Shown here: positions 1,455-19,040 of the stretch, one piece after another
Layout of the letters: each line of letters opens with the position of its first letter
Position numbering within the stretch: position 1 is the stretch's first letter
DNA from: Planctomycetota bacterium
GTDB taxonomy: Bacteria; Planctomycetota; Phycisphaerae; UBA1845; UTPLA1
DNA: 64,000 bases
Direction of reading: 5' to 3'
Assembly (NCBI GenBank): GCA_003576905.1
Contig: QEVG01000024.1
Coordinates: 1 to 64,000, forward strand
Position numbers and translations under genes: made by a program
Notes under the pieces: model-generated
The model's database searches: none
The model's input: only the letters and a program-made list of their open reading frames with translations
What the model was told of the DNA's origin: nothing

Positions 1455-2807
1455 ATGGTCATGAGAATCAGCAGGGCCCTTTTTGTCGTTGGATTCTGCG
1501 CGCCTCCTTTCCTTGCGGCGAGTCCGCGCGCGTACGCCACTTTCCACCTGATGCAGATCGAGCAGGTCATCGGCGGCGTGAGCGGCGACACCGACGCGCA
1601 GGCGATCCAGCTTCGCATGCGATCGAACGGACAGGAATTCGTCTCCGCGGCGCGGCTGCGAATCTGGGACAGCGCGGGCAATCCCACCCTGTTGCTGGAC
1701 CTGACGACCAGCGTGACCCGAGGCGAGACGGGCAGTCGTATTCTCATCGCGACGCCGGCATTCATCGCGAAGACGCTTCCGAACGCCGAGGCGGACTTTC
1801 AGATTCCAAACGGCAGCCTGACCGCGATCCTCGCCTCCGGTTCGCTGACGTTTGAGGATGACCTCGGCACGGTGCTCTGGCGGCTGACCTGGGGCAACGC
1901 ATCGTACACGGGACCGACAACGGGCGGGACGGACAACGATCAGGACGGTCAGTTCGGGCCCGGAGTTGCGGGAGCGCTCCCCTCCGCGGGCCTGACGGCG
2001 CTGATCTTCAACGGCGCGGCGACCGCGCCCTCCACCAACAACGCGGCCGACTACGGAACCACGCCGGGCGCGGCGGTCTTCACGAACAACGCCGGGTGCA
2101 CGTACACGGTCGACGCGGGCCCGGCCTGCGGGGCGGTTGACAGCGACATGGACGGTACAAATGACGATTGCGACGCCTGCACCGATACCGACGGCGACGG
2201 AGCGGGCGACCCCGGCTTTGCGACCAACTGCCTCAATTCATGTCCGACCGACAACTGCCCCGCAGTACAAAACGCCAGCCAGGGAGACGCGGACAACGAC
2301 GGGATCGGCGATGCGTGCGACACCTGCACAGACACCGATGGAGACGGCTTCGGAGATCCCGGCTTTGGCGCAAGCACATGCCCCGTGGACAACTGTGCCG
2401 GCACGGCGAACCCCGGACAGGAGGACGGCGACGGCGACGGTCGCGGCGATGTCTGCGACAACTGCCCGGCCCTTGCCAACGCCGACCAGGCCAACACCGA
2501 TTCCGACGCGCGCGGCGACGCGTGCGACAACTGCCCCGGCGCGGCGAACAGCGACCAGGCGGACGCCGATGGCGACGGCACCGGCGACGCCTGCGAAGCC
2601 GGCGCGCCCGGCGGCGATGACGATGGAAACCCGGACGACGGCGGAGGGCCCGGCGGTTCAGACGGCGCGTGCGGTACGATGGGCGGCTGCGCCGGGGGCA
2701 TGGCCTCCGCGGTCACAGCGGTCATGGCGGGACTTCCGCTGTTGCGCCGGCGGGTGCGGCGTCATTCAAAATCGGCGCCGCTCGGAACGACAAGATCAAG
2801 TTCCTGA
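1455..2807 (+). CDS. Secreted thrombospondin type 3 repeat protein with a C-terminal anchor-like tail
   Basis: A 450-residue exported protein. Residues 1-27 form a signal peptide ending near RAYA. Residues 28-220 are a beta-rich domain I do not recognise. From about 225 to 385 there are five or more thrombospondin type 3 calcium-binding repeats, seen as DADNDGIGDACD, DGDGDGRGDVCDNCP and similar units. A Gly/Asp linker follows, then a tripartite tail: a Cys-containing GACGTMGGC motif, a short hydrophobic stretch, and LLRRRVRR. That architecture resembles cell-surface sorting signals such as MYXO-CTERM, though it does not match one exactly. The last 46 bp overlap the convergent gene ending at 2762. 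The second ATG at 1461 is an equally possible start. It is probably a surface or matrix protein. Confidence 0.8.
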   Translation: MVMRISRALFVVGFCAPPFLAASPRAYATFHLMQIEQVIGGVSGDTDAQAIQLRMRSNGQEFVSAARLRIWDSAGNPTLLLDLTTSVTRGETGSRILIATPAFIAKTLPNAEADFQIPNGSLTAILASGSLTFEDDLGTVLWRLTWGNASYTGPTTGGTDNDQDGQFGPGVAGALPSAGLTALIFNGAATAPSTNNAADYGTTPGAAVFTNNAGCTYTVDAGPACGAVDSDMDGTNDDCDACTDTDGDGAGDPGFATNCLNSCPTDNCPAVQNASQGDADNDGIGDACDTCTDTDGDGFGDPGFGASTCPVDNCAGTANPGQEDGDGDGRGDVCDNCPALANADQANTDSDARGDACDNCPGAANSDQADADGDGTGDACEAGAPGGDDDGNPDDGGGPGGSDGACGTMGGCAGGMASAVTAVMAGLPLLRRRVRRHSKSAPLGTTRSSS

Positions 2808-3373
2808 AGCCAGGCTCGAAGCGATTCATCCTTGAGAAGCTCCCGCAGCGAATCGTCGCGCCGGGCGATGAAATCCGTATCGAAGTCCGGGCTCGCTCGA
2901 TCGACGCGGGGCCGGCCATGATGATCGAACTGCGCGATCATGTAATCCACCCAGGATGACAGGTAGGTTCCGAGCGCCGAAGCGAGCAGGACCGCGCCGG
3001 AGGACCAGGGGCTCCATCGAATCACCCGGCCATAGGCGGGTCCGCGCTGTACCACGAGCCAGTCGGAGGCGTCTTCGGGGACGCCGCGGATGGGAATGAG
3101 TCCGGCGAAGGCGGCGGGACTGGACATGGACCGGACCATCCGTTCGATTTCGTGGATGCAGCAGAGGTGCTGATCGTGCGGCACCGTATCGAGATGCACG
3201 CGGAGGCCGTTGCAGGTGGAAAGGTAGATCGTGAGGTCGCGCGGCAGCGGGCCGACGACGGCTTCGAGTTGCGCCAAGTCGGCGGCCGAGGCAGGGGGAC
3301 GGACGACGACGCGCTTGTCGAAATGGGCGGACAGCCGGTTCAGCGCCGAGTCGATCACACATTCGTGAATCAT
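2762..3373 (-). CDS. SMI1/KNR4-like domain protein
   Basis: A 203-residue protein starting at an ATG that overlaps the stop of the preceding beta-gamma oxidoreductase gene as ATGA, so translation is probably coupled. The sequence follows the SMI1/KNR4 pattern: a PPASAADLAQLEAVVGPLP start, a hydrophobic YLSTCNG turn, and a C-terminal SWVDYMIAQF helix. Family members are often immunity proteins against contact-dependent toxins, but many have no known role. Here the gene is the last of a metabolic operon and no toxin gene is nearby, so an immunity role is not supported. The frame continues upstream to 3550, but that part is antisense-like Arg-rich sequence inside the previous gene. Confidence 0.7.
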   Translation of the reverse strand: MIHECVIDSALNRLSAHFDKRVVVRPPASAADLAQLEAVVGPLPRDLTIYLSTCNGLRVHLDTVPHDQHLCCIHEIERMVRSMSSPAAFAGLIPIRGVPEDASDWLVVQRGPAYGRVIRWSPWSSGAVLLASALGTYLSSWVDYMIAQFDHHGRPRVDRASPDFDTDFIARRDDSLRELLKDESLRAWLQELDLVVPSGADFE

Positions 3374-4737
3374 GATGCAGCCTCCGGAAACAGTGCGGCA
3401 TGCGGTTGCGTGCGTGCGGTCTCGTCGAAGCAACCCCGCGCGGCGCGAACCGCGGCGAGATTGCCCTCGACGTAGCGGCCGCCGAGTGCTCCGACGGCGG
3501 ATTCGACCGTCGGACCGTCGAGCCAGCCCTGAACAAGGACACCAAGACACAGCGCGGCCAACGCGGCCGACGCCCTGCCGGACGATTTCTCAAGGGAGGC
3601 CAGGTCGATGAACTGAAGCGACGCCTTGATGACCGGTAGCGTCACGGCGGCATCGGCGATCACACGACACCCGGCCGGCAGTGAAGAAAGCTCTCCCAGA
3701 CGGCGCGCGCCGTCGTCGCTCAGAATCAGAACGAGATCGGGCCGGTCCACGCCGCTGTAACGGATCGGTCGATCGCTGACGATGAGTTCCGATACGGAGT
3801 GGCCCTTTCGCACGGTGATCGGAAAGTCATCGAGCTGCGCGGCGAACAGTCCGCCGGCGACGGCGATTTCGCCAAGGACTCCGGCGGCGGAGCGGATCCG
3901 CTGGCCGGCCGAACCGGCGATGCATATCTCGCGCCGACCCGGCCAGGCCAGCGCGGCGATTGAGGGCGGCGATGCCGACGGGCGGCTCGTGAGCGGTGGC
4001 TCGGGCTGGTGCGTCGACGCGACTTCCGTGGGCATGTCGCGCAACAGCCCCAGGGGAAGTCCGAACGTTTCGGATAGCGGCAGAAACGACGTCGGCTTGA
4101 ACTTGTTCGACGGAACAAAGTACGCGGTGCAAAGCTCCCAGATGTCCAGGAGGGCGAAGCCGGGCGATCGCAGGGCGGCCTCGATCTTGTCACTGAGATC
4201 GGCGTCGAGCGCGCTGAACCGCCCCGCGTGTGCCGCGCCGTTGGCAATCACGGTCTGGCAGATATCGAAGGGACGCTCGACGGCCCCGCCGGGCGTCGTC
4301 GCCGTCCGCGCCTCGGGCGGTGTGGTCGGCGAATGCTGACCGCCGGTCATGCCGAAATTGAAATTGTTGCAGACCAGGATCTTGATCCCGATGCCGCGCC
4401 GCGCGGCATGGACCAGGTGGGCGGTCCCGATTCCGCAGCCGCCGTCACCAATCAACACGATGACCGACATGCCGGGCCGCGCCCGCTTGATGCCTTCGGC
4501 ATAGGTGATGGAACGGCCGTGCAGACCGTGAAAAGTGTGGCAGGAGAAATAGCGATCGGCGGTGCCGATGCAGCCAATGTCCGAGACGATGCACACCTCT
4601 TCCGGCCGCAGGCCCATGCGGTCCATCGCCGCGCCGAGCGACTCAAGCACGGCCGCATGGGAACAGCCGGGACAGTAGCACATGTCGCCACGACGGGCCG
4701 TTAAAAGCGACGATTCCGGACAGGCGGCGCGACTCAT
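3370..4737 (-). CDS. 2-oxoacid:ferredoxin oxidoreductase, beta and gamma subunits fused
   Basis: A 455-residue fusion. Residues 1-235 are the TPP-binding beta subunit: MCYCPGCSH near the N terminus, GDGGCGIGTAH for the TPP/Mg site, and NNFNFGMTGGQHSPT, all typical of KorB/VorB. Residues 270-440 are a gamma domain, beginning REICIAGSAGQRIRSAAG and containing VTVRKGHSVSE-like sequence. The enzyme oxidatively decarboxylates a 2-oxoacid to acyl-CoA and passes electrons to ferredoxin, with the alpha subunit encoded just upstream (4 bp overlap). The substrate cannot be read from the sequence; 2-oxoglutarate or branched 2-oxoacids are possible. No separate ferredoxin-like delta subunit is in this operon, so electron acceptor proteins must come from elsewhere. 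Confidence 0.9.
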   Translation of the reverse strand: MSRAACPESSLLTARRGDMCYCPGCSHAAVLESLGAAMDRMGLRPEEVCIVSDIGCIGTADRYFSCHTFHGLHGRSITYAEGIKRARPGMSVIVLIGDGGCGIGTAHLVHAARRGIGIKILVCNNFNFGMTGGQHSPTTPPEARTATTPGGAVERPFDICQTVIANGAAHAGRFSALDADLSDKIEAALRSPGFALLDIWELCTAYFVPSNKFKPTSFLPLSETFGLPLGLLRDMPTEVASTHQPEPPLTSRPSASPPSIAALAWPGRREICIAGSAGQRIRSAAGVLGEIAVAGGLFAAQLDDFPITVRKGHSVSELIVSDRPIRYSGVDRPDLVLILSDDGARRLGELSSLPAGCRVIADAAVTLPVIKASLQFIDLASLEKSSGRASAALAALCLGVLVQGWLDGPTVESAVGALGGRYVEGNLAAVRAARGCFDETARTQPHAALFPEAAS

Positions 4738-5864
4738 CCGCAGAACCCCTCCATGACGGCGTTCAGGATGGTCCGCGGCGCGATGAGCCCGCCGTCAAAG
4801 CGGGTGAGCGACGAGATCTTTCCGTGCCGCACGACCCTTCGAATCTCCTCCACGTAGAGGCCGATGTTGAGCTCAGGCACGATGAGGTGCCGTACGTACG
4901 AAGTCACCGCACGGCGAACGGCATCGCCCGGCACGGGCCACAGGCTGTAGAGCGTCAGCCGAGATACGCGCCGGCCCATGCTCCGTGCCTCGTCCACCGC
5001 GTCGCGCGCCGCGCCGTCCGTCGCACCGTAGCAGATAACCAGCGCTTCCGCGTCGGGATCGATGTCCGCGTCGAAAAGCTCAAGACTGGTTCGCGCGCCC
5101 TGGATCTTCGCATCCAGATGGCGAAGCTTGCGATCGATCTTGCGACGGTCGATTGTGAGCAGCCCCTCCTCATCGTGAATGGAGCCCGTGAAACGGACGC
5201 GGGCCGGGCCGCCGATCGGCGCGAACGCCGGCACATCGTCGAGTTCGGCGACGCGGTAGGGATGGAAGTCGCCGTCGGACCCATGCATTGTTCTCGCGCG
5301 CTTCTCAGCGAGCGGAATTTCGTCCAGATCAACCGTTTGGCGCGTCAAGGCGATGTCCTTGGACGACAGGAGAATGACCGGCGTGCGAAGCCGCTCGGCG
5401 ATGTTGAAGGCTTCATGGGTGAGGCGGTAGGCCGTGGCGGCATTCGTCGCGGCGAGCACGGGCAGCGGATATCCGCCTGACGTAATATGGCGTGCGAACA
5501 GAACATCGCCTTCTCCGGTCGCCGTCGCGCCGCCGGTCGCGGGTCCCATCCGCTGACAGTCAACAATGACCAGGGGCACTTCCCCCATCTGGGCGAGGCC
5601 GATGTTTTCGCTGTACAGGCTCATACCGGGCCCGGAGGTCGCGGTAAGGGCCCGCGCCCCCGTCATGGCGGCGCCGATGCACTGCCCGATGGCGGCGATC
5701 TCGTCCTCGGTCTGAACCGCCCTGCCCCCGCCGTCGGCGAAGGCATCGACGAAATCAGAAAGGATGGAGCTGGCCGGCGTAATCGGATAACCGGCGAAGA
5801 AATCGCAGCCCGCACGCAGCGCCCCGCGCACGACGGTCTGGTTGCCGGTCAGGAATTCACGCAC
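4734..5864 (-). CDS. 2-oxoacid:ferredoxin oxidoreductase, alpha subunit
   Basis: A 376-residue alpha subunit of the KorA/VorA type. Early motifs GYPITPASSI and QTEDEIAAIGQCIGAAMTGARALTATSGPG are the hallmarks of the pyrimidine-binding domain. The C-terminal half contains the domain II fold with ICYGATDGAARDAV and ending VPELNIGLYVEEI. It starts with GTG, which lies inside the last codons of the cupin gene (8 bp overlap), and its own end overlaps the beta-gamma gene by 4 bp, so the subunits are made from one message. Function: acyl-CoA formation from a 2-oxoacid with ferredoxin reduction, in the cytoplasm. The substrate is not determined. Confidence 0.9.
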   Translation of the reverse strand: MREFLTGNQTVVRGALRAGCDFFAGYPITPASSILSDFVDAFADGGGRAVQTEDEIAAIGQCIGAAMTGARALTATSGPGMSLYSENIGLAQMGEVPLVIVDCQRMGPATGGATATGEGDVLFARHITSGGYPLPVLAATNAATAYRLTHEAFNIAERLRTPVILLSSKDIALTRQTVDLDEIPLAEKRARTMHGSDGDFHPYRVAELDDVPAFAPIGGPARVRFTGSIHDEEGLLTIDRRKIDRKLRHLDAKIQGARTSLELFDADIDPDAEALVICYGATDGAARDAVDEARSMGRRVSRLTLYSLWPVPGDAVRRAVTSYVRHLIVPELNIGLYVEEIRRVVRHGKISSLTRFDGGLIAPRTILNAVMEGFCG

Positions 5865-6213
5865 GTTGCGCTCCCACGAAGGCGACGGACTGCTCGGACT
5901 TATCGAAGATGTAAAGACCGCGCCATCCAGCGTAGATCATCGCCTCATGATCGACGCCCGCGGGAATGTAGTGCGACTGCCCCGAGCCGTAGGATTCGCG
6001 GACGCCGCCCATTTCAAGTTCCATGTGCCCGGCCAGAACGATCCCCCACTGAGCTCCGTGCCGATGTCGCGGCACCAGCACATCGCGATCGGCGGCCATG
6101 AAAATCGTGAGGCCCCGGGGGCTCTTGAGCACGCGGCCGGTAAGGCCCTCATAGGTCAGCTCGACTTCGGGCCAGGAATCGACAAACGGCGGGAAACAGC
6201 ATTCGACAACCAT
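5857..6213 (-). CDS. Small cupin-domain protein
   Basis: A 118-residue single-domain cupin. Cupin motif 1 is visible as RHRHGAQWGIVLAGHMELEMGG and motif 2 as SHYIPAGVDHEAMIYAG, giving the His ligands for a metal. A strong GGGAGG ribosome site precedes the ATG. It sits between the DUF35 gene and the oxidoreductase alpha gene and overlaps the latter by 8 bp, so it is translated with the enzyme. It may bind a small-molecule effector or act as an isomerase or dioxygenase-like enzyme in the same pathway; the sequence does not decide between these. Confidence 0.8.
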   Translation of the reverse strand: MVVECCFPPFVDSWPEVELTYEGLTGRVLKSPRGLTIFMAADRDVLVPRHRHGAQWGIVLAGHMELEMGGVRESYGSGQSHYIPAGVDHEAMIYAGWRGLYIFDKSEQSVAFVGAQRA

Positions 6214-6240: not shown

Positions 6241-6714
6241 TCAGGCCGGGACCCACGCGAGATCGAGAATCGTGTTCGTGGGCCTCGCCGTGTTGAAGAC
6301 GGCCCGGACCGGCAGACCGATGCGGGCCTCGCCCTCCTTCAGCCAGCTCATCAGCTTCGTGCAGACGCCTTCGATCTCCACGCTGATCAGCGGCGTGCCG
6401 GGCGGCAGCTTGAACAACTCGCCCGGATACTTGACGACGCTCCACGTGTAGATTCGCCCCTGGGTCGGGGCCTCGATCCATTCCATTGTTCCCCAGCAGT
6501 CAGGGCATTCGCACCGGGGCGGAAGCCATAAGCGCTTTTCGGGACAGCCCTGGTTCGTGCATCGTGTCGCGAGGAGCTTTTGTTCGCGGAGGCCCGCGAA
6601 GAACCGGCCCCATCCGCCGTAACTGTGATGGTGTCCCCAGGTCTTCGGGTTGATCACCACGAGGGGATCGTCGCTTACCTTCTCAAGCACCTTGTTCGGC
6701 CACGCCGTTGCCAT
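6241..6714 (-). CDS. DUF35 protein: Zn-ribbon and OB-fold acyl-CoA-associated subunit
   Basis: A 157-residue protein. Residues 45-75 form a Zn-ribbon: TRCTNQGCPEKRLWLPPRC followed by ECPDC. Residues 80-157 form the OB-fold, with GRIYTWSVVKYPGE. DUF35 proteins act as partners of thiolase-fold enzymes; known cases include the archaeal thiolase/HMG-CoA synthase complex, PhlB with PhlC, and the actinobacterial Ltp2-ChsH2 steroid aldolase. Here the gene follows the thiolase-fold gene by 18 bp on the same strand, so a two-protein complex is the natural inference. The OB-fold would guide the CoA substrate between active sites. Confidence 0.85.
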   Translation of the reverse strand: MATAWPNKVLEKVSDDPLVVINPKTWGHHHSYGGWGRFFAGLREQKLLATRCTNQGCPEKRLWLPPRCECPDCWGTMEWIEAPTQGRIYTWSVVKYPGELFKLPPGTPLISVEIEGVCTKLMSWLKEGEARIGLPVRAVFNTARPTNTILDLAWVPA

Positions 6715-6732
6715 GATCCGCTCCGTGCCCTG

Positions 6733-8103
6733 TCAGGGTCGTTCGAGAATCGCGCAGGTCACATGACTGCCGGTGCCGGCGTGCGAGATCGCGCAGCCCC
6801 GCCGCGCGTTTTTCACCTGGAGGCTTCGAAAATCCGCCGGCTTCTTTTTTCCGTAGCGGCTCCAGCGTTCCGGGTCGGCATGAAACTTGTCCCACTTGCC
6901 CTGAAGCTGCCAGAGGATTTCGACAAGCTGGAAGATCCCGGTCGCGCCGACGGCGTGCATGGTTCCGATCAGCCCGCCGGATAAGTTCGTGGGCAGCCTC
7001 CCCTCGTAGTACGCATCTCCGGACTCGATGAACTCCCTGCCCCGGCCGTACGGACGCAGGCCGATGTCTTCATACGTCTGCACGTCGCTGATCGTGAAGG
7101 CGTCATGTGTTTCCAGGAGATCGAAATCAGCGATCGGGTCCTTGATGCCCGCCATGTGGTAGGCGAGATACGCCGCCATGCGCGAGGCGAGGAAAGAGCT
7201 GAAGCCGGGCCAGTCCCGCCGCTTCTGGGAGAAGTATTCGCCGTAGGTCGCCTCGGTCTCGTTCGGAAGAAGCAGAATCGGCATATGGCGCCGATCCGCG
7301 GTGCGAAGGGTATGCGAGCCGCCGCAGATCGCGGCCAATCGGATTGGCTGGTCGGCGTACCTGAACGCGGTTTCCTCGTCGCACACCAGCAATACGGCCG
7401 CACCGACGCTCATCGCGCAGCATTCGAGGAACGCGAGCGGGTGGGAGACGATCTCATTCTTCAATATTTCGTCGACCGAGTACCTGCCGGGATTCTGAGA
7501 GTATGGGGAGTAACAGGCATACTCGTGGTTCTTGCAGGCGATCCGGGCGAGCGTCTCGCGCGGAACGTTGTTTTCATATTGGTACCGCTGGGCCATCAGC
7601 GCGTAGTAGCTGGCGTACATCCAGCCCAGTTCGCTCTCGAAGTCCTTGCACGCGGCGGATGCGATGTAGGAATTGCCCACCTTTGTTGAAACTTCGTCCA
7701 TGCGCTCCCAGCCCACCACGGGCACGCACGACGCATAGCCACTTGCCACCGCCTGGGCCGCCGCCAGGACCGCCGACCCGCCGGTCGCGCCCCCGGTCTT
7801 GACTTCGATGTTGCCGAGCGGATCGAAGCCGAGGTAGTCGTGTACTTTTGCGGCGGCGAGGAGCTGGTCGCCGAAGTGATCGGCGAACTGGGAATAGACG
7901 CACCAGTTGACGCCGCGTCGCACCTCTTCCGAGGATACCTTCAGGTCGTTTTCCTCCACGGCCATGCGGAGGGCTTCAAGACACAACTGGCAGCTGTTCT
8001 TTTCGGGATAGCGCTTTCGAAAGTCCGTCAGCCCGCCGGCGATGACGTAGACAGGCCGCTCAAATCGGGGAATCCTCAGATTGCCGGGTCCGAAACGTAT
8101 CAT
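6733..8103 (-). CDS. Thiolase-fold protein lacking the nucleophilic cysteine
   Basis: 456 residues from the ATG with an AGGGAG site 8 bp upstream; the longer frame to 8196 is not needed. The thiolase fold is clear: HDAFTISD at 333-340, GGLIGTMHAVGATG at 376-389 with the catalytic-type His383, and ISHAGTGSH at 439-447. At the place where biosynthetic and degradative thiolases carry the acyl-accepting Cys (CASGG), this protein has KTGGATGG with Gly105. Without the Cys it cannot use the normal ping-pong mechanism. The SCP2-thiolase-like Ltp2, which partners a DUF35 protein and is a retro-aldolase, also works without that Cys. An aldolase-like or acyltransferase-like role on a CoA thioester is inferred from this and from the adjacent DUF35 gene. 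Confidence 0.85.
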   Translation of the reverse strand: MIRFGPGNLRIPRFERPVYVIAGGLTDFRKRYPEKNSCQLCLEALRMAVEENDLKVSSEEVRRGVNWCVYSQFADHFGDQLLAAAKVHDYLGFDPLGNIEVKTGGATGGSAVLAAAQAVASGYASCVPVVGWERMDEVSTKVGNSYIASAACKDFESELGWMYASYYALMAQRYQYENNVPRETLARIACKNHEYACYSPYSQNPGRYSVDEILKNEIVSHPLAFLECCAMSVGAAVLLVCDEETAFRYADQPIRLAAICGGSHTLRTADRRHMPILLLPNETEATYGEYFSQKRRDWPGFSSFLASRMAAYLAYHMAGIKDPIADFDLLETHDAFTISDVQTYEDIGLRPYGRGREFIESGDAYYEGRLPTNLSGGLIGTMHAVGATGIFQLVEILWQLQGKWDKFHADPERWSRYGKKKPADFRSLQVKNARRGCAISHAGTGSHVTCAILERP

Positions 8104-8229
8104 GCCGCATCTCCCTTCATCGCGTCGGGACAGACTCCCTCCCCGACCCGGTCCGCCGGCTGGCGCCTCTCGAGTCGCCGCCCCGGCAACGAGCATCGCG
8201 AAAACGCTGTCGATGAGTCCGCGTCGGAA

Positions 8230-8685
8230 TCACGTTCGGGCAATCGCTCCGACGATGGGCTGGGTAATCTGTTCCCAGTCGTCCCGTCGCATGCGCACGG
8301 CCTCGGTATGCGAGCCGATCTGCATGAACAGGCGCTCGTCATAGCGCAGCCGGTGGTCCATGATGGTGCGAATGCCGAACAGATTCCCGACCGGTGGCTC
8401 CGCGCCGAGTTCGCAATCCGGGAAGAGCGACTTCATTTCGTCTTCCGTGGCCAGCCGGACGCTCTCCTCGCCGAGAAGCCGGGCGACCTTGTTGAGATCG
8501 ACCTGGTCCGGTGCCGCGACCACACACATCGCGAACCCGCGCGCCCCGCGCACGACGACCGGCTTGGCCACTTCATAGCCGGACACATGCTCGGCTGCGG
8601 CGAGGTCCTGCGAGGTGTAGGTCGGGCGATGCCATAGCTTCTTGTATGGAATCTCCTGGTCATCGAGGACTTTTTCGAGCTTCAT
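8230..8685 (-). CDS. YbaK/EbsC-family aminoacyl-tRNA deacylase-like protein
   Basis: A 151-residue single-domain protein with the YbaK/ProX pattern: KLWHRPTYTSQDLAAAEHVSGYEVAKPVVV near the N terminus, then MCVVAAPDQVDLNKVARLLG and a GNLFGIRTIMDHRL segment near the C terminus. The family hydrolyses mischarged tRNAs such as Cys- or Ala-tRNA(Pro) in trans. An AAAGGAG site precedes the ATG. It is the first gene of the minus-strand run toward the thiolase and oxidoreductase, 126 bp from the next start, so co-transcription is possible but the gene may be functionally separate. Proteins of this family beside metabolic operons have also been called stress proteins. Confidence 0.8.
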   Translation of the reverse strand: MKLEKVLDDQEIPYKKLWHRPTYTSQDLAAAEHVSGYEVAKPVVVRGARGFAMCVVAAPDQVDLNKVARLLGEESVRLATEDEMKSLFPDCELGAEPPVGNLFGIRTIMDHRLRYDERLFMQIGSHTEAVRMRRDDWEQITQPIVGAIART

Positions 8686-12203: not shown

Positions 12204-15200
12204 TCACTGGCTTAGCAGCAGATCGACGAACGCGTCGGTGTCGAGGCCGTTGAGCACGGTGTTCTCATCCATGTCCGCGCAGGGGTCGTAGAACGGGCTC
12301 ACCAGGTGCGCGTCGATGAAGCCCTGTACGTCCATCGCGTCGAGGACGGTATTGCCGTCCATGTCGCCGAGAATGCCGGGGCAGGTCTGCGGAACCGAGA
12401 CACACCCGAAACGATCAACCCGGAAATCGTCGAGGGCGGCTTCGATCAGCGAGCCCTCGGCCGCGTCTTCGGCGACGAACCGCATCCTGATCTGGGCCGT
12501 CGGCGTCACGAAGTCGCCGACGCTGAACGAGTGGAATCGCCAGCCTCCCACGACTTCGGAGCCGGCAGGGCCGATGGTCTCCACGTTGACCCATGTGCCG
12601 GCGACGCCGGCCTGGTTGGAGATATCGACGCGGAACACGTCGGCATTGGGCCCGCCGCCGGTGTTGTTCGAGTACCAGCGCCAGTAGCTGATCGTCGCGT
12701 CGCCGTCGGAGAGATCGATGATCGGCGAGACAAGCGTCGTCTTGCCGCCGTCGACATCGTTGTCGCCGAGACCGCCGCCCACCGCGCCCTGTCCTGTCAC
12801 CCAGCAGATGACGCCGGGATCGGCGGTGTGGTCGTCCTCGGGCTGCGCGGCGGTGCCGTTCGGATTGACGCGCGTCCAGATCCCCGTCGTCGCGTTGTCA
12901 TCGGGGATTCCTCCGGCGGCGCCCACGCTCCATCCGAGGTCGTTTTCCATGTCATCTTCAAACGAAACCTCAAAATCGCCGACCACGGCCGCAAATGGAC
13001 TCGCCGATCCATCCGCGGGATTGGCCACCTCGCCGGTCAGCGCGCCCTCCGCGGTGAAGTAAAACTCCGGCATGGAATCGCAGTTCGGCGCGGGCAGGGT
13101 CGCGGAATAGGCGTTGCCGCCGAGCGGCATCATCGCCACCGGCGTAAACGCGCCGCCGCCATAGCGATAATGCAGGAACTCGGAACCTCCGACGACAGTG
13201 TCGTTCACGGTCGAAAGTTCGACGGGAATGACGACCGGGTCGCCGGGCGACATGACGGATGGCACGCCGGCGGGAAGCGAGATGGCCAGGCCATGGAGCG
13301 GGGCCAGTGCCGACGATGCGCAAATCGAGAACGGCTGAGGACCAGCCGGAACGCTGGTGCCTACAACCTCGATGGTCCATGTGCCCGCCTCCGGCGAGTC
13401 CACCACGACCTGCTCGATGTTGTTGACGTGGTCGGCCTGGGTCCGCATGGCGGCCGCCGAGGGATTGGCCGGGTCAAGCGTCCACGGATACGCCCGCGCC
13501 TGCGATGGGCTGATGACGACGAGATCAAGATCGTTGACCAGCGCGGGATCGACATTGGGGGTGCCCGGCGCATCGTCCCAGGCGAGCGTTATCTTGAGCG
13601 GCCCGGAGCCGCCCGTGACCTGTACCGAAGTAATCGTCCTGCCGCCCTGGCCGACTTCGGACTCGGCGAAGTTTCCGGTACGCATGAAATCGATCGTGTC
13701 CTTGATGCGAACGCTGCCGTACCCGAACTGGTAGTCGGGGCCGGCGTTGCCGAGGTCGAACGCGTTGTGCGCCAGAAAAATCTTGAGCGTGGAATTGCGA
13801 GGGTCGGGCAGCGCCGGAAACTGCACCCGATAGTCCTCGAGCAACAGCGCGCAAAGCCCCGTCACGGTCGGACAGGCCATGCTCGTCCCGCAGGCGACGC
13901 CGTACGACGTGTTGCTCGACGCCGTCGTTGATGTCACGCCGAAGTCATCCGAACTCTGGCACCCCGGCGCGCAGATATCCGGCTTGAGACGCCCGTCGTC
14001 CACCGGCCCCCAGCTGCTGAACGAAGTCATGGTGTCGTTGTTGGAGTTCACCGCCCCGACGCAGATGTGGTTCTTCGCACCGGAGGGCGGCGCGATGCTC
14101 CGGTAGTCTCCGACGCCCTCCACGTCGCAGCGGCTGCCCTGCCGCTCGTTGCCCGCCGCCCAGACAATGCGATACGGCGCTCCCAGCGAGCCGCGGACGA
14201 TCTCGTCGATCAGCGCATCGGTCACGCCGTAGTCGCCCTGCATGCTGCATGGAAACCCGTTCGTTTCAACGTTCGTACCGATCGAGTTGTTGGAGATGTC
14301 GCAGCCGAAGGAGTGGATGGCCTGGTTGTAGTCCGACTCGAGATCGCCGGGGTCCGTGTAAAGAAAGCCTGAACCCGCGGAAAGTCCGTACGACTCGATA
14401 AGTACGCCGGGGGCCATGCCCCGATTGGTTCCGCCGCTGGCGCTGCCGCTCCCTCCGACCGTGCCCGAGACGTGCGTGGGGTGATCCGACAGACCGGAGC
14501 TGTCCCGAACCGTCAGACGCCCGCCAAAATCAACGTGCGACGCCCGGGCGGTGCCGCCGTCATAGACCATGACACTGACGCCCGAACCGTCGAGGTTGTA
14601 TGGCGCGGCCTGAACGTCGTTCGCCTGTGTGATCACGCGATTGCTGCTGTTGGTGCCGGTCAGAAGCGGCAGCGGCGGCTCGATCCACTGAACCGCATCG
14701 AGTTCCGCGATGGCGGATATGCGCGTGCGCGGCGCCTCGATGACCAGGCCGTTCACGCTGACCAGTTCCGCCCGGACGACCGCCGCGTGTGCCTCGACAA
14801 GCTCGCTCGCGGCGCTCAGCGCGACATCGCGATGAAAGAGCACATAGAGCGCGACCTGCTCGACCTCCGCGCCGCCATCGAAGACCCTGCCGACCATCGA
14901 CCATGCGGGCAGGTCGCCTGCGACCAGAGCGGGGTGAAGTTTGATATTCGTCGCGATCGGCTCGATGGTGGAAAGCGCCGCAACCTGCTCCAGTTCATCA
15001 AAGCGAACCACCGCCCGGGCGGCCGATGCAAAATAGGCATTGCCGCCGAGGGGCGCGAGAAGGCGTACCCCCGCCGAGTCCAGTCGCGCCTTTACGCCGG
15101 TATCCACCGGCCGGGAGAAGGCCACGACGAAATGACTCGTTTCGTCATCCGAAAGGATATTGCGCAGGGCGGCGATGCTTTCCTTCGCGGACTGCGCGTT

Positions 15201-15347
15201 CATCGCGCGCGACGGAACCGAACGCCAGCGCACCTGGCCCGGCGCCGGATCTACGAACCCAACGCTCACGAGTGCCAGAACGACCGACGAAATGACTTGC
15301 GCGCGGACACGGCCCGATGCCCGGAACAGGGGCGAAAGCTGTGACAA
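12204..15347 (-). CDS. Secreted subtilisin-like serine protease with a dockerin-like C terminus
   Basis: A 1,047-residue exported S8 peptidase. I place the start at a TTG preceded by GGAGGAG with 7 bp spacing; this gives an N-terminal signal peptide ending VDPAPGQ. The frame stays open to 15737, but that part is Arg-rich and lies opposite mfd. A propeptide-like region is followed by the catalytic domain: Asp in VYDGGTARASH (near 262), His in HPTHVSGTVGG (near 290), and Ser in GTSMACPTVTG (near 488). Downstream are beta-sandwich domains and a CUB/P-like region. The last 60 residues hold two calcium loops, DMDGNTVLDAMD and DMDENTVLNGLD, as in dockerins. The protein probably degrades extracellular protein. 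Confidence 0.9.
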   Translation of the reverse strand: MSQLSPLFRASGRVRAQVISSVVLALVSVGFVDPAPGQVRWRSVPSRAMNAQSAKESIAALRNILSDDETSHFVVAFSRPVDTGVKARLDSAGVRLLAPLGGNAYFASAARAVVRFDELEQVAALSTIEPIATNIKLHPALVAGDLPAWSMVGRVFDGGAEVEQVALYVLFHRDVALSAASELVEAHAAVVRAELVSVNGLVIEAPRTRISAIAELDAVQWIEPPLPLLTGTNSSNRVITQANDVQAAPYNLDGSGVSVMVYDGGTARASHVDFGGRLTVRDSSGLSDHPTHVSGTVGGSGSASGGTNRGMAPGVLIESYGLSAGSGFLYTDPGDLESDYNQAIHSFGCDISNNSIGTNVETNGFPCSMQGDYGVTDALIDEIVRGSLGAPYRIVWAAGNERQGSRCDVEGVGDYRSIAPPSGAKNHICVGAVNSNNDTMTSFSSWGPVDDGRLKPDICAPGCQSSDDFGVTSTTASSNTSYGVACGTSMACPTVTGLCALLLEDYRVQFPALPDPRNSTLKIFLAHNAFDLGNAGPDYQFGYGSVRIKDTIDFMRTGNFAESEVGQGGRTITSVQVTGGSGPLKITLAWDDAPGTPNVDPALVNDLDLVVISPSQARAYPWTLDPANPSAAAMRTQADHVNNIEQVVVDSPEAGTWTIEVVGTSVPAGPQPFSICASSALAPLHGLAISLPAGVPSVMSPGDPVVIPVELSTVNDTVVGGSEFLHYRYGGGAFTPVAMMPLGGNAYSATLPAPNCDSMPEFYFTAEGALTGEVANPADGSASPFAAVVGDFEVSFEDDMENDLGWSVGAAGGIPDDNATTGIWTRVNPNGTAAQPEDDHTADPGVICWVTGQGAVGGGLGDNDVDGGKTTLVSPIIDLSDGDATISYWRWYSNNTGGGPNADVFRVDISNQAGVAGTWVNVETIGPAGSEVVGGWRFHSFSVGDFVTPTAQIRMRFVAEDAAEGSLIEAALDDFRVDRFGCVSVPQTCPGILGDMDGNTVLDAMDVQGFIDAHLVSPFYDPCADMDENTVLNGLDTDAFVDLLLSQ

Positions 15348-15563
15348 TGGAATACTCCTCCACCCTTCCCGCTTGGGGATGAACTGGCTCTGCCAGATTC
15401 CAAGGTAGCCAATCGGCCGGCGTAAATCAATCAGGACCGCGGGGACGTTCCTTCGAAAAACACCGGCTCGGCGGCGGATTTCCCGTTGCAATCCGGACCT
15501 TGCCGATCGCACGCCGGCCCTGACCGATTTGCCGGATCGCGCCCGAACGCCAATAATCAAGCC

Positions 15564-18500
15564 GTGCGGGTGACGGGCACGATACGCGAAGATGCCCGGT
15601 TCAGGGCCCTCTGCGCGCGGCTGGAGGCGGGACACACCCCCCTCGCGGCGCACGGGCTGTGGGGATCCGCTGCGCCCATTCTGGCGGGACTGCTTGCCCG
15701 CGAATCGGGACGCCCCGCTTTGTACCTGACGGCCCATCTCGATCAGGCCGATGACGCCCGCGATGACATCGAGACGATTCTCGGCCGCCCCGTTTTGCTC
15801 TTACCGGCGTGGGAGACGCTTCCCGGTGAAGGCAGCGCGGCGAGCGAAATATCCGCCGAGCGGACGCGCCTGTGCGCGGAGTTGCTCGAACTTCGGCGCG
15901 GGACGACGACCGCGGAGTCCCCCCCCTTCATCGTCGCTCCGATTCAGGCGCTGATGCAGCCCGCGCCCTCCCCGGAGAGCCTTGATGCCAATACTCTGAC
16001 CCTGTCGGCCGGCGGCCGGCGCGACCCGGAGGACATCGCCGCCTTCCTGACGGGCCGGGGCTTTTCGCGTCTCGACCAGGTCGAGGACCCGGGCGACTTC
16101 GCCCTGCGCGGCGGAATCCTGGATATCTTCTGGACGGCGGACCTCGATCCTCTCCGCATTGAGTTCTTCGGCGATCGAATCGAGTCGATCCGGCAGTTTG
16201 AGGCCGGTTCACAGAGATCCACACGCACCCTTCAGACCGCCCGGATCACGCTGCCGCCCAATCCCGGACGAACCTCCCCCGGGGCGACCACGACCTTTCT
16301 GGACTTCCTCGATCCGCGCACGCTGATCGTCTGGCACGAGGCGTTGGAGTTAATGGAGGTCGCCCGGACCATCCTCGACCGGCTCGCCTCGCCTGTCGGT
16401 CACTTCCCCGTCGAAGCGATCATGCGGAACGCGGGCCGGTTCGGCCAATTGCACGTCAGCCGCTTTGCCTCCGCCGCCGCGGCGGATTCCGACACGATTA
16501 AGCTGCACTGCGAAGCGCTGCCTACCTTCGAAGCCAGGGCCACCGACGCGGTGGCTCAGCTCATACAGCTTTCAGCCGCCGAACCCGTCGTCGTGTGCTG
16601 CGATAACCGGGGCGAGGAGGAACGCCTGCACGAACTTGTCGCGCAGGTGCTCTCGCTGGCGGCGAAGGAAGGCGTCGCTCCCCCGGGAAAACCTGAGATT
16701 GAAACGCACATCGGCCTGATCCACACGGGCTTCCGCTGGACGGCCCCGGCGGCCGACGGAAAGCCCTCCTCCGGCGCATGCACCGTCGTCCCTCATCACG
16801 AGCTGTTCCGCCGCTACACGCAGAAGCGGCGCCTCCGGAAGGTCGCCGCCACGCGACCGATCGAGTCCTTCCTCGACCTGAGCGACGGCGATTACGTCGT
16901 GCACGTGGTGCACGGCATCGGAAGATACGTCGGCATGAAGACGATGCGCAAGCCGGACTCGCGCAAGAGCGAGGAGTTCCTGACCCTGCGCTTCGCCGAC
17001 GACGCGACGATTCATGTGCCGGTCTCGCAGATCGACCTCGTCCAGAAGTACATCGGGGCGAAGGCGGCCCGGCCGCCTCTCTCCAAGCTCGGCGGAACGC
17101 GCTGGCAGGCCACCAAGGCTCGCGTCGAGGAAGCCGTCGATGAAATGGCCGGCGACCTGCTGCGCATCCAGGCCGTGCGCGAGTCCCAGCCGGGCATGGC
17201 CTTTCCGCAGGACACGCACTGGCAGCTCGAGTTCGAGAGCGCGTTTGTCTACACGGAGACCCCCGATCAATTGAGCGCCATGCGCGAAATAAAAAGCGAC
17301 ATGACGCGCCCGCGGCCGATGGACCGCCTTCTCTGTGGTGACGTGGGCTATGGAAAGACCGAACTGGCGATCCGCGCGGCCTTCAAGGTGGCGGAGTTCG
17401 GCAAACAGGTGGCGGTGCTGGTCCCCACCACGGTCCTCGCGGAGCAGCACCTTCGCACCTTCAGCGAGCGCATGCGCGACTACCCGTTCGTCGTGGACTG
17501 TCTCAATCGCTTCCGAACGCCGCGCGAGCAGAAGAAGATCATCGCGGCGACCCGCGCCGGTCAGGTGGACATCCTTATCGGGACGCACCGGCTGCTGTCG
17601 AAGGATGTCGGATTCGCCGACCTGGGACTGGTCATCGTCGACGAGGAACAGCGCTTCGGCGTGGAGCACAAGGAACGCCTGAAGTTCTTGCGGGAGACCG
17701 TCGACGTCCTGACCCTGACCGCGACGCCGATCCCCCGCACCCTCCACATGGCCATGATCGGACTGCGCGACATCTCCAGCCTCGCCACGCCGCCCATGGA
17801 CCGGCGCTCGATCACCTCGAGCGTCTGCGTCTGGAGCGACGACCTCATCCGCGAGGCCATCGTGCGCGAGCTCAACCGCGACGGACAGGTGTACTTCGTC
17901 CACAACCGGGTTCACTCGATCCGAAGCATCGCCGCCCGCGTCCAGTCTCTCGCGCCCGACGCCCGCATCATCATCGGTCACGGGCAGATGCCCGGCGAGG
18001 AACTCGAAGAGGTCATGCTCAGGTTCGTCCGCAGGGAGGCCGACATCCTCGTCTGCACGTCCATCATCGAGGCGGGTCTCGACATTCCCAACGCCAACAC
18101 GATCATCATTGACCGGGCGGACATGTTCGGACTGGCCGACCTGCACCAGCTTCGCGGCCGCGTGGGTCGCTACAAGCACCGTGCATACTGTTACATGCTT
18201 CTGTCGCCCGACCGGCCGCTCACGAGCACGGCAGCCAAGCGCCTCAAGGCGATCGAGGAATACAGCGAACTCGGCTCCGGCTTCCGGATCGCGATGCGCG
18301 ATCTTGAAATCCGCGGGGCGGGAAACATCCTCGGGCCCGAGCAATCGGGAAACATCGCGGCGGTGGGCTACGAATTGTACTGCCAGTTGCTCGAAAAGGC
18401 CGTCAAGCGCATGAAGGGCGAGCACGTGCAGGAGCGCATCGCCGTCCACGTCGAGCTGGACGTCGATGCATACATCCCGAAGAGCTATATCCCGTCCGAC

Positions 18501-19040
18501 CGCCAGCGGATGGAGTGCTACCGGCGCGTCGCCGCCTGCGCTTCGGCCCGCGACGTTGAGCAGCTCTCGTCCGATCTGCGCGACGCATTCGGCCCCTATC
18601 CCGAGACCGTGGACACCCTCCTTACGCTGACCGAAATCAAGGTGCGCGCCGCAGAATGGAACATCCAGTCTGTCATCAAGCGCGAGCCGGACGTGATCTT
18701 CACCTACGAAGGCGAAGTAAAAAAGCTCGAGCCGCTTTTCGACGGCGCGAGCGGCTCGGTACGGATTCCCGACGGCCGCACCTTTCACTGGCGGCTCCCG
18801 GAAAACTTCTTTCATGGCCAGACACTCCTGCGCGTCCTTACAAACCTCTTCCGCCGCGCGGATGGCCGACCCAAGCCCGCCCGACTTCCCAGTGCGAAAA
18901 AGCGACCGGCCGCCGTGCAGGATGCGCTGCCCACTTCCGAAAAGCCGAGTGCCGGCACGCCCATCCCCGAGTCGGGCACTGAACGAGCAAAGCCGCATGC
19001 GACCCATCCGAAAAAAGCCCGTGCCGCAAAGCCCCGATAG
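15564..19040 (+). CDS. mfd: Transcription-repair coupling factor Mfd
   Basis: Mfd removes RNA polymerase stalled at DNA damage and recruits UvrA. The start is uncertain: a GTG at 15564 gives 1,158 residues, near the family norm, while a TTG at 15486 adds 26 unconserved residues. Order of parts: UvrB-homology module at the N terminus (LLLPAWETLPGEG), RNA polymerase interaction domain (DYVVHVVHGIGRY), superfamily 2 translocase with Walker A GDVGYGKTE, DEEQ box followed by RFGVEHKERLK, and TATPIPRTLHM, then helicase motifs V-VI (GRVGRYKHRAYCYM), and the D7 regulatory domain. The last 60 residues are a low-complexity Lys/Ala/Pro tail not usual for Mfd. Confidence 0.96.
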   Translation: MRVTGTIREDARFRALCARLEAGHTPLAAHGLWGSAAPILAGLLARESGRPALYLTAHLDQADDARDDIETILGRPVLLLPAWETLPGEGSAASEISAERTRLCAELLELRRGTTTAESPPFIVAPIQALMQPAPSPESLDANTLTLSAGGRRDPEDIAAFLTGRGFSRLDQVEDPGDFALRGGILDIFWTADLDPLRIEFFGDRIESIRQFEAGSQRSTRTLQTARITLPPNPGRTSPGATTTFLDFLDPRTLIVWHEALELMEVARTILDRLASPVGHFPVEAIMRNAGRFGQLHVSRFASAAAADSDTIKLHCEALPTFEARATDAVAQLIQLSAAEPVVVCCDNRGEEERLHELVAQVLSLAAKEGVAPPGKPEIETHIGLIHTGFRWTAPAADGKPSSGACTVVPHHELFRRYTQKRRLRKVAATRPIESFLDLSDGDYVVHVVHGIGRYVGMKTMRKPDSRKSEEFLTLRFADDATIHVPVSQIDLVQKYIGAKAARPPLSKLGGTRWQATKARVEEAVDEMAGDLLRIQAVRESQPGMAFPQDTHWQLEFESAFVYTETPDQLSAMREIKSDMTRPRPMDRLLCGDVGYGKTELAIRAAFKVAEFGKQVAVLVPTTVLAEQHLRTFSERMRDYPFVVDCLNRFRTPREQKKIIAATRAGQVDILIGTHRLLSKDVGFADLGLVIVDEEQRFGVEHKERLKFLRETVDVLTLTATPIPRTLHMAMIGLRDISSLATPPMDRRSITSSVCVWSDDLIREAIVRELNRDGQVYFVHNRVHSIRSIAARVQSLAPDARIIIGHGQMPGEELEEVMLRFVRREADILVCTSIIEAGLDIPNANTIIIDRADMFGLADLHQLRGRVGRYKHRAYCYMLLSPDRPLTSTAAKRLKAIEEYSELGSGFRIAMRDLEIRGAGNILGPEQSGNIAAVGYELYCQLLEKAVKRMKGEHVQERIAVHVELDVDAYIPKSYIPSDRQRMECYRRVAACASARDVEQLSSDLRDAFGPYPETVDTLLTLTEIKVRAAEWNIQSVIKREPDVIFTYEGEVKKLEPLFDGASGSVRIPDGRTFHWRLPENFFHGQTLLRVLTNLFRRADGRPKPARLPSAKKRPAAVQDALPTSEKPSAGTPIPESGTERAKPHATHPKKARAAKPR

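Follow-up and report, generated by a model that had tools for sequence, protein, structure and literature searches.

The 64,000-nucleotide stretch of Planctomycetota DNA analyzed here (contig QEVG01000024.1, positions 1 to 64,000; hereafter the window) encodes, on its reverse strand, a thiolase-fold protein in which Gly105 stands in place of the nucleophilic Cys of thiolases, and a DUF35 protein whose gene lies 18 bp downstream. Gly occupies this position in all 125 distinct sequences (rows) of the family, the one from the window included, which rules out a sequencing error or a lone mutant. We favor the reading that the protein is a DUF35-bound C-C lyase or aldolase of the thiolase fold, working without an acyl-enzyme and with its substrate left unstated, and we give this reading a probability of roughly 45%. 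The gene pair and the codons discussed below are located as follows:

6733..8103, (-): thiolase-fold protein without the nucleophilic Cys, 456 residues, ATG at 8103, Pfam Thiolase_N and Thiolase_C_1
7876..7878, (-): codon of His76 (DHF), invariant in the clade, non-His in the paralogues that keep the nucleophile
7789..7791, (-): codon of Gly105, motif VKTGGATGGS, aligned with the nucleophilic Cys of thiolases
7417..7419, (-): codon of Cys229, the sole Cys invariant in the clade; Ser in L089 and 6esq, Cys in BbsB and SCP2-thiolase
7096..7107, (-): codons of HDAF, 333-336; His333 is retained, and Ala335 contrasts with Cys in the paralogues that keep the nucleophile
6955..6957, (-): codon of His383, the histidine of the thiolase GHP motif, here MHAVGATG
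6781..6783, (-): codon of His441 (SHAGTG), Met in the paralogues that keep the nucleophile
6241..6714, (-): DUF35 partner, 157 residues, with a zinc ribbon (Cys52, 57, 70 and 73) and an OB fold

An ATG at 8196, upstream of that at 8103, is a second candidate start for the thiolase-fold coding sequence. The initial annotation had described a thiolase-fold gene, a neighboring DUF35 gene and a 2-oxoacid oxidoreductase following them; all are present, and its coordinates proved exact.

Conservation of the active site

Gly105 aligns with the nucleophilic Cys of solved thiolases (CASG in 6esq and 7yvy, CSTG in 6hsj, CSAG in BbsB), those of SCP2-thiolase and the archaeal acetoacetyl-CoA thiolase included, and with that of four paralogues from the same order or phylum (ESACASGG, in one case ESACASGA; hereafter Cys-paralogues). 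Of the features that characterize a thiolase, the protein has the fold and the GHP-motif histidine, His383, but not the nucleophilic Cys. His76, Cys229, His333, Ala335, His383, Ser440 and His441 are, like Gly105, invariant in 125/125 rows, and the exchange of Cys for Gly with His383 and HDAF kept, which had been read from this one protein, is confirmed, and the exchange itself is fixed across the whole clade. Clustered at 99% identity, the 125 rows yield 124 clusters. The count leaves out five rows, four for their length (L048, L076, L077, L086) and L049 as a Cys-paralogue, and a 126th row, L089, is the same Cys-paralogue gene as L049 and stands outside the 125.

Relative to the Cys-paralogues, the clade shows several coordinated changes, namely C105G, HDCF to HDA[FY], a new DHF in place of GLF, and SHAGTG or SHAGVG where the three Cys-paralogues long enough to be read have QNMGGTG. 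Position 229 is Ser in L089, the single Cys-paralogue read there. Judged from these alignments, the clade appears to have lost both catalytic-type cysteines, gained two histidines (His76 and His441) and fixed another cysteine (Cys229). HDAF does not by itself signal Cys loss, however: the P. furiosus thiolase and BbsB combine it with a nucleophilic Cys, which weakens the loss of both catalytic cysteines as a mark of an aldolase. A fragment search for a correspondence between His76 and the essential His56 of PhlC returned no PhlC.

Family and distribution

The best NCBIfam model for the window protein is PRK06365 (NF004982, "thiolase domain-containing protein"), matched over its full length (residues 2-455) with 525.8 bits, below the cut-off of 695; four group-B relatives exceed that cut-off (717.7, 697.6, 697.0 and 696.2 bits), and the description of the model gives no function. 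Among the window's own genome and 100 of its kin, 42 of 101 gave a match; three of these (G022, G080, G088) were removed as distant Cys-paralogues with 28-29% identity, and the other 39 carry the family gene, mostly 78-89% identical and in some cases partial. A draw of 392 genomes from the phylum at large contained 19 that match PRK06365 at E <= 1e-60, one of them the window's own and another that of a Cys-paralogue (G123, L049). A public genome scan returned at least 588 stretches encoding a relative, and the best 80, which are those examined, all belong to group B and all have Gly at the nucleophile position (80/80). The carriers include Planctomycetota (with anammox bacteria), Nitrospirota, Nitrospinota, Thermodesulfobacteriota (Geobacterales), Bacillota (Desulfosporosinus), Chloroflexota, Actinomycetota, Acidobacteriota, Aminicenantes, Methylomirabilota, Myxococcota, Tectomicrobia, Thermoplasmatota and Undinarchaeales, and the rows in which Gly105 is invariant span at least 12 phyla.

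Group A, to which the window protein belongs, comprises 37 distinct rows more than 70% identical; next to it stand L041 and L047 as intermediates, and a further 87 rows have 48% identity or less, those of group B with the Cys-paralogue L089 among them. In a tree of 48 rows, group A, the intermediates and group B fall together, and a long, fully supported branch separates them from three Cys-paralogues; the root is a midpoint root only, and the program warned of long branches for PAR_L049, L041 and L047. Both groups have Gly105, DHF, HDA and SHAG, and the complete group-B rows from the draw on the phylum score 654-718 bits against PRK06365. They differ in the motif around His383 (MHAVGATG in group A versus GHPVGATG in group B), and group A has an N-terminal extension of about 14 residues and a C-terminal insert of about 15 residues, while it lacks the insert of similar size (about 15 residues) that most group-B rows carry before the GHP motif. 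One genome (G044) carries a second copy of the thiolase-fold gene (L084, 3328-3486), a fragment with an in-frame stop about 4.5 kb from the intact gene.

What the initial annotation had noticed, a Cys-to-Gly exchange next to a DUF35 gene, is well founded and applies more widely than it had claimed. A literature search of open-access papers, in which the family name was searched only in combination with other terms, gave no study that we recognized as dealing with this family. We conclude that the family, widespread in bacteria and archaea, is uncharacterized and that its name is probably misleading.

The DUF35 partner

The DUF35 protein matches PF01796 (OB_ChsH2_C) with 35 bits against a gathering cut-off of 27.1, and its four zinc-ribbon cysteines are invariant in 25/25 aligned partners. 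A DUF35 gene lies downstream of the thiolase-fold gene, on the same strand and within 2.5 kb, in 23/23 group-A loci and 71/78 group-B loci with enough sequence, that is in 94/101 loci. DUF35 is thus a regular partner of the thiolase-fold gene, as an adjacent gene and, putatively, in a complex. The predicted structure of the partner (mean pLDDT 89.8) most resembles the DUF35 domain of Sal-Shy (Z 12.3) and that of Ltp2-ChsH2 (Z 11.6), followed by Trf (6htj, Z 11.4) and 6esq_E (Z 10.7); neighbors within Z 1 count as tied, so that Ltp2-ChsH2 is tied with Trf and 6esq_E.

The place of Trf, the Sulfolobus translation recovery factor, among these neighbors speaks for the idea that the thiolase-fold protein is a non-catalytic CoA-binding or scaffold subunit, with the DUF35 protein acting elsewhere, as in Trf, which is itself a DUF35 protein (PMC6996347). 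There is a parallel in PhlA, a relative of 3-hydroxy-3-methylglutaryl-CoA (HMG-CoA) synthase which is reported to lack its key residues and to take no part in acyl transfer (PMC6392133). Such a role is hard to reconcile with the regular pairing of the two genes and with the 90 positions that are invariant, from bacteria to archaea, in at least 124 of the 125 rows and that include polar residues of the kind expected in a catalytic site, and we regard it as very improbable.

Predicted structure and comparison with known enzymes

The AlphaFold2 model of the thiolase-fold protein has a mean pLDDT of 85.6 and a pTM of 0.92. The closest solved fold is the archaeal acetoacetyl-CoA thiolase of M. thermolithotrophicus (6esq/6et9), which in 6esq likewise comes with a DUF35 partner; the best match, 6et9_C, reaches Z 47.8 at 2.1 A over 382 aligned residues with 30% identity. 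It is followed by the P. furiosus thiolase (7yvy_C, Z 47.3), Sulfolobus tokodaii ST0096 (4yzo_B, 46.9), BbsB (44.2), SCP2-thiolase (43.3) and PhlC (43.1), with Ltp2 (41.0), TbSLP (39.5) and Sal (39.2) lower and the classical thiolases at 34.8 or less. The archaeal enzyme and 7yvy differ from the window enzyme in retaining the nucleophilic Cys and in lacking a His at 76 and at 441. The benzoylsuccinyl-CoA thiolase BbsAB (7pxp) shares the DUF35 partner, HDAF and Cys at 229, but differs in that BbsB keeps the nucleophile. ST0096, which is thiolase-like, also lacks a Cys at this position; it differs in having Ser instead of Gly there, an HDMA motif, no DHF, and Ser-Met rather than Ser-His at 440-441.

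These similarities bear on an alternative in which the protein is still a thiolase or a Claisen-type acyl transferase, the lost nucleophile being replaced by Cys229 or by a mechanism without a covalent intermediate. Its nearest relatives in fold and sequence are true thiolases (6et9, 7yvy, BbsB), and Cys229 is the sole invariant Cys, as might be expected if, as the initial annotation considered, the Cys had moved to another loop. The nucleophile position is strictly Gly, however, and SCP2-thiolase and BbsB carry a Cys at 229 besides their nucleophile, so that Cys229 does not look like a moved one. The displaced Cys that the initial annotation named as a refuting finding is thus relevant only in part, and we consider the alternative unlikely.

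Sal-Shy (9myr) and Ltp2-ChsH2 (6ok1) have the thiolase fold, a DUF35 partner and the DUF35 domains nearest in fold to that of the window. Sal is a proven aldolase (PMC12329534) with Gly at the nucleophile position, as in the window enzyme, and a DUF35 partner. The authors' model has the substrate hydroxyl meeting the backbone amide of Gly89, presumably the Gly of the nucleophile position, and in their view thiolysis by Sal is impossible (PMC12329534). Nevertheless, the Cys-thiolases above resemble the window enzyme more than Sal and Ltp2 do, in fold as well as in sequence, and the catalytic Tyr of the latter two, in the motifs YDCY and YDHF, corresponds to His333 in the window enzyme, where the motif is HDAF or HDAY (125/125) with Ala in third place. 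For lack of the catalytic Tyr, membership in the Ltp2/Sal family was rejected. The close kinship to Ltp2-ChsH2 that the initial annotation had drawn on is likewise not borne out, since the thiolase-fold subunit is nearer to the archaeal acetoacetyl-CoA thiolase and BbsB and has His333 in place of the Tyr base. No HMG-CoA synthase was found by Pfam among the seven proteins of the window cluster that were scanned.

Gene neighborhoods in group A

Downstream of the pair, the window contains the following genes:

5857..6213, (-): small cupin, 118 residues, within 5 kb in 5/19 group-A loci
4734..5864, (-): 2-oxoacid:acceptor oxidoreductase alpha subunit, POR_N and PFOR_II
3370..4737, (-): 2-oxoacid:acceptor oxidoreductase beta subunit fused to a gamma domain, TPP_enzyme_C and POR

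The three genes overlap successively, by 8 and 4 bp. All four oxidoreductase domains (3370-5864) are above their Pfam cut-offs, indicating that the alpha, beta and gamma domains are present; the oxidoreductase is below every NCBIfam cut-off. The gamma (POR) domain is C-terminal on the beta subunit (3370-4737, (-)), whereas in TIGR03710, which the cluster also matches, gamma precedes alpha. The oxidoreductase genes are followed by one for a protein without Pfam match (2762-3550, (-)), which L051, L052 and L082 keep next to this oxidoreductase at 37-40% identity. On the other side, the gene pair is immediately preceded by a gene for a protein with a YbaK-like tRNA-editing domain (8230-8685, (-)), which recurs in L052 with 60% identity. 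Further away, a large subtilase-like open reading frame (12204-15737, (-)) and an Mfd-like one (15486-19040, (+)), both named by eye, overlap at their 5' ends on opposite strands, suggesting that one start is placed too far upstream.

Neighborhoods were counted by tblastn with single representatives, as gene calls from a simple script missed genes. In the 19 group-A loci with at least 5 kb on both sides, Kor/Por genes lie within 5 kb in 6, versus 2 of 54 in group B; within 9 kb they are found in 7 of 28 group-A loci. The expectation for the 19 loci is about 0.14 (296 POR_N matches in 101 genomes, 2.9 each), with a binomial tail of about 4e-9 that overstates the case because the loci are related. 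At least two types of oxidoreductase are involved, KorA with KorB-gamma (the window, L051, L052, L082) and PorC-GltD/PorA/PorB (L053, and L078 by similarity). L053 has its gamma subunit joined instead to a GltD-like NAD(P) protein in one chain of 773 residues. The link to a 2-oxoacid oxidoreductase, first seen in the window, thus recurs in group A with different Kor/Por types.

Gene neighborhoods in group B and the B12 mutase

The group-B sample consists of the 54 loci with both flanks out of 92, L089 being among the 92 and too short for the 54 or for the 78 loci used for DUF35. Within 5 kb, 28 of the 54 have an acyl-CoA dehydrogenase, 25 a mutase and 44 either of these, and MeaB, HBDH and a YtnP-like metallo-beta-lactamase (MBL) hydrolase are each found in 11; these are neighborhoods of acyl-CoA oxidation. 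A Cys-thiolase is present in only 10 of the 54, a low figure that speaks for a thiolase function of the Gly105 protein, while in those 10 loci the protein is probably something other than the pathway thiolase.

A composite gene order for Nitrospirota runs E1/E2, Cys-thiolase, HBDH, mutase large subunit, MBL, mutase small subunit, thiolase-fold gene, DUF35 and MeaB, then an enoyl-CoA hydratase, a PrpD-like gene and PrpB; it was compiled from L107, L109, L110, L112 and L128, none of which carries every gene. Among 14 loci examined, the mutase small subunit and thiolase-fold genes overlap by 4 bp in six (L107, L109, L110, L111, L112, L128) and are 51-216 bp apart in five others. The YtnP-like hydrolase lies between or beside the mutase subunits and the thiolase-fold gene in 15 of the best 80 of the at least 588 loci, including L100, L104, L105, L107-L110, L112, L116 and L128. 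In Geobacterales, where 18 loci represent 13 distinct genes, an acyl-CoA dehydrogenase is directly upstream of the thiolase-fold gene in 13/13, and three also have the Cys-thiolase-HBDH pair. The two adjacent dehydrogenases examined are nearer to short-chain acyl-CoA dehydrogenases than to isovaleryl-CoA dehydrogenase.

The linked mutases have Phe and Gln at the two specificity positions in the seven cases that cover the first position, and an eighth, partial, shows Gln; read for comparison, MCM has Tyr/Arg and HCM Ile/Gln. Phe/Gln is what we take to be the isobutyryl-CoA-mutase signature, and the group-B neighbor is accordingly a predicted mutase of that type. Of 24 group-B genomes, 22 gave a readable Phe/Gln mutase, one more has IcmF by family assignment, and G512 showed three Tyr/Arg types only; the window's own genome has one as well (L244). 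An obligate partnership with isobutyryl-CoA mutase was nevertheless rejected on account of G512 and the lack of IcmF enrichment among Geobacterales carriers (6/14 genomes with the gene versus 61/127 without, p = 0.78). Any fused Phe/Gln mutase is present in 10 of the 14 carriers, while G524, G586 and G635 have only the Tyr/Arg type and G576 has none; of 17 genomes with neither the gene nor IcmF, one (G556) has the other fused Phe/Gln type. Eight Geobacterales loci (L240-L243, L279-L282) show a second fused B12 mutase, in open frames of 1048-1164 residues scoring well below IcmF, also with Phe/Gln. Carriers and non-carriers alike among the window's kin frequently have the mutase family (80/101), which therefore gives little signal there.

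A specific assignment would be a 3-hydroxyisovaleryl-CoA aldolase, by which the leucine branch ends as acetone and acetyl-CoA, replacing HMG-CoA lyase. The logic of a tertiary beta-alcohol is that of Ltp2. The recurring labeled group-B genes fit valine (the Phe/Gln mutase) and isoleucine or propionyl units (HBDH, acetoacetyl-CoA thiolase, PrpB), and none belongs to the leucine branch. In keeping with a replacement, few group-B genomes have HMG-CoA lyase (3 of 24, 2 above cut-off), and only one of the 14 Geobacterales carriers does. This avoidance lacks statistical significance in Geobacterales, however (1/14 versus 25/127, p = 0.47), and also in the good genomes of the window's kin (13/23 with the gene, counting G004 with a match below the family cut-off, versus 30/40, p = 0.16), and the window's own genome has an HMG-CoA lyase above cut-off. 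The affinities of the two neighboring dehydrogenases also point away from leucine. With the statistics offering weak, non-significant support, we did not retain this route, which seems quite improbable.

Proposed mechanism

In the thiolase active site, two histidines hold the enolate of the CoA thioester, and a backbone-NH hole lies at the position of the nucleophile. Without the nucleophile, the ping-pong route of thiolases is closed; an enolate site with two histidines and a backbone-NH hole at Gly105 remain, and these suit an aldol cleavage or addition. The enolate would be held by the retained histidines His333 and His383, and the carbonyl of the second fragment would take the place of the former acyl-enzyme, in a hole formed by the backbone NH of Gly105 and the C-terminal glycine loop. 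Since a His stands where Sal and Ltp2 have Tyr, the proton carriers must differ; the new invariant residues His76 and His441, and perhaps Cys229, may move the protons, while DUF35 would stabilize the complex and shape the pocket. The substrate would be a short, probably branched beta-hydroxyacyl-CoA, which may arise after oxidative decarboxylation of a 2-oxoacid (by Kor in group A, by E1/E2 in some group-B loci) and also downstream of acyl-CoA dehydrogenase or mutase steps. We infer this chemistry, its direction, the substrate and the roles of the named residues from sequence, conservation, predicted fold and gene neighborhood.

The same site might use only the enolate half of the reaction, making the protein a decarboxylase of malonyl-type CoA esters or an alpha-epimerase or isomerase of a branched acyl-CoA. 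KS domains whose Cys is replaced can act as decarboxylases, and here both histidines are retained and the nucleophile lost. A gene divergent from the pair in L056 matches mmdA, at 326 bits far below the cut-off of 998.8. TbSLP slowly decarboxylates malonyl-CoA, whereas Sal showed no decarboxylation of it (both PMC12329534), and no decarboxylase is found among the recurring labeled neighbors, the unlabeled genes not all being identified. We judge this use of the site unlikely, to much the same degree as, or very slightly less so than, a surviving thiolase activity.

Several observations weigh against the C-C lyase or aldolase that we favor. The closest folds are true thiolases, and the catalytic Tyr of Ltp2 and Sal is absent, with His333 instead. 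Ltp2 and Sal have a MaoC hydratase domain together with DUF35, but Pfam found none in the seven scanned window proteins. The model is weak at residues 152-165 and 224-228, and the proximity of His76, His441 and Cys229 to the pocket is putative. In group A, an acyl-CoA dehydrogenase or mutase occurs within 5 kb in only 1 of the 19 loci, the context being otherwise Kor and cupin; this sparse context suggests that groups A and B may differ in function. The aldolase interpretation of the initial annotation is thus partly upheld: the Sal precedent of Gly with DUF35 in aldol chemistry (PMC12329534), the clade-wide exchange, the DUF35 partner and the Kor link support it, and the kinship to Ltp2-ChsH2 is not supported.

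Implications

Taken as a whole, the family probably makes or breaks C-C bonds in short branched acyl-CoA intermediates. A more far-reaching suggestion, which we hold to be distinctly unlikely, is an unrecorded route in which a thiolase/DUF35 aldolase without the nucleophilic Cys, relying on a catalytic set of its own (His76, His441, Cys229), cuts branched acyl-CoAs without thiolysis, from archaea to planctomycetes, and releases a ketone or aldehyde and an acyl-CoA (for example acetone and acetyl-CoA from leucine carbon) where HMG-CoA lyase or thiolase is expected. The members of the family are named "thiolase domain-containing protein", yet the usual thiolase mechanism is closed to them. If they are aldolases, many reconstructions of branched-chain amino acid and short fatty acid pathways in uncultivated bacteria and archaea would be wrong at one step, and a further way of turning the thiolase fold into an aldolase would become testable.

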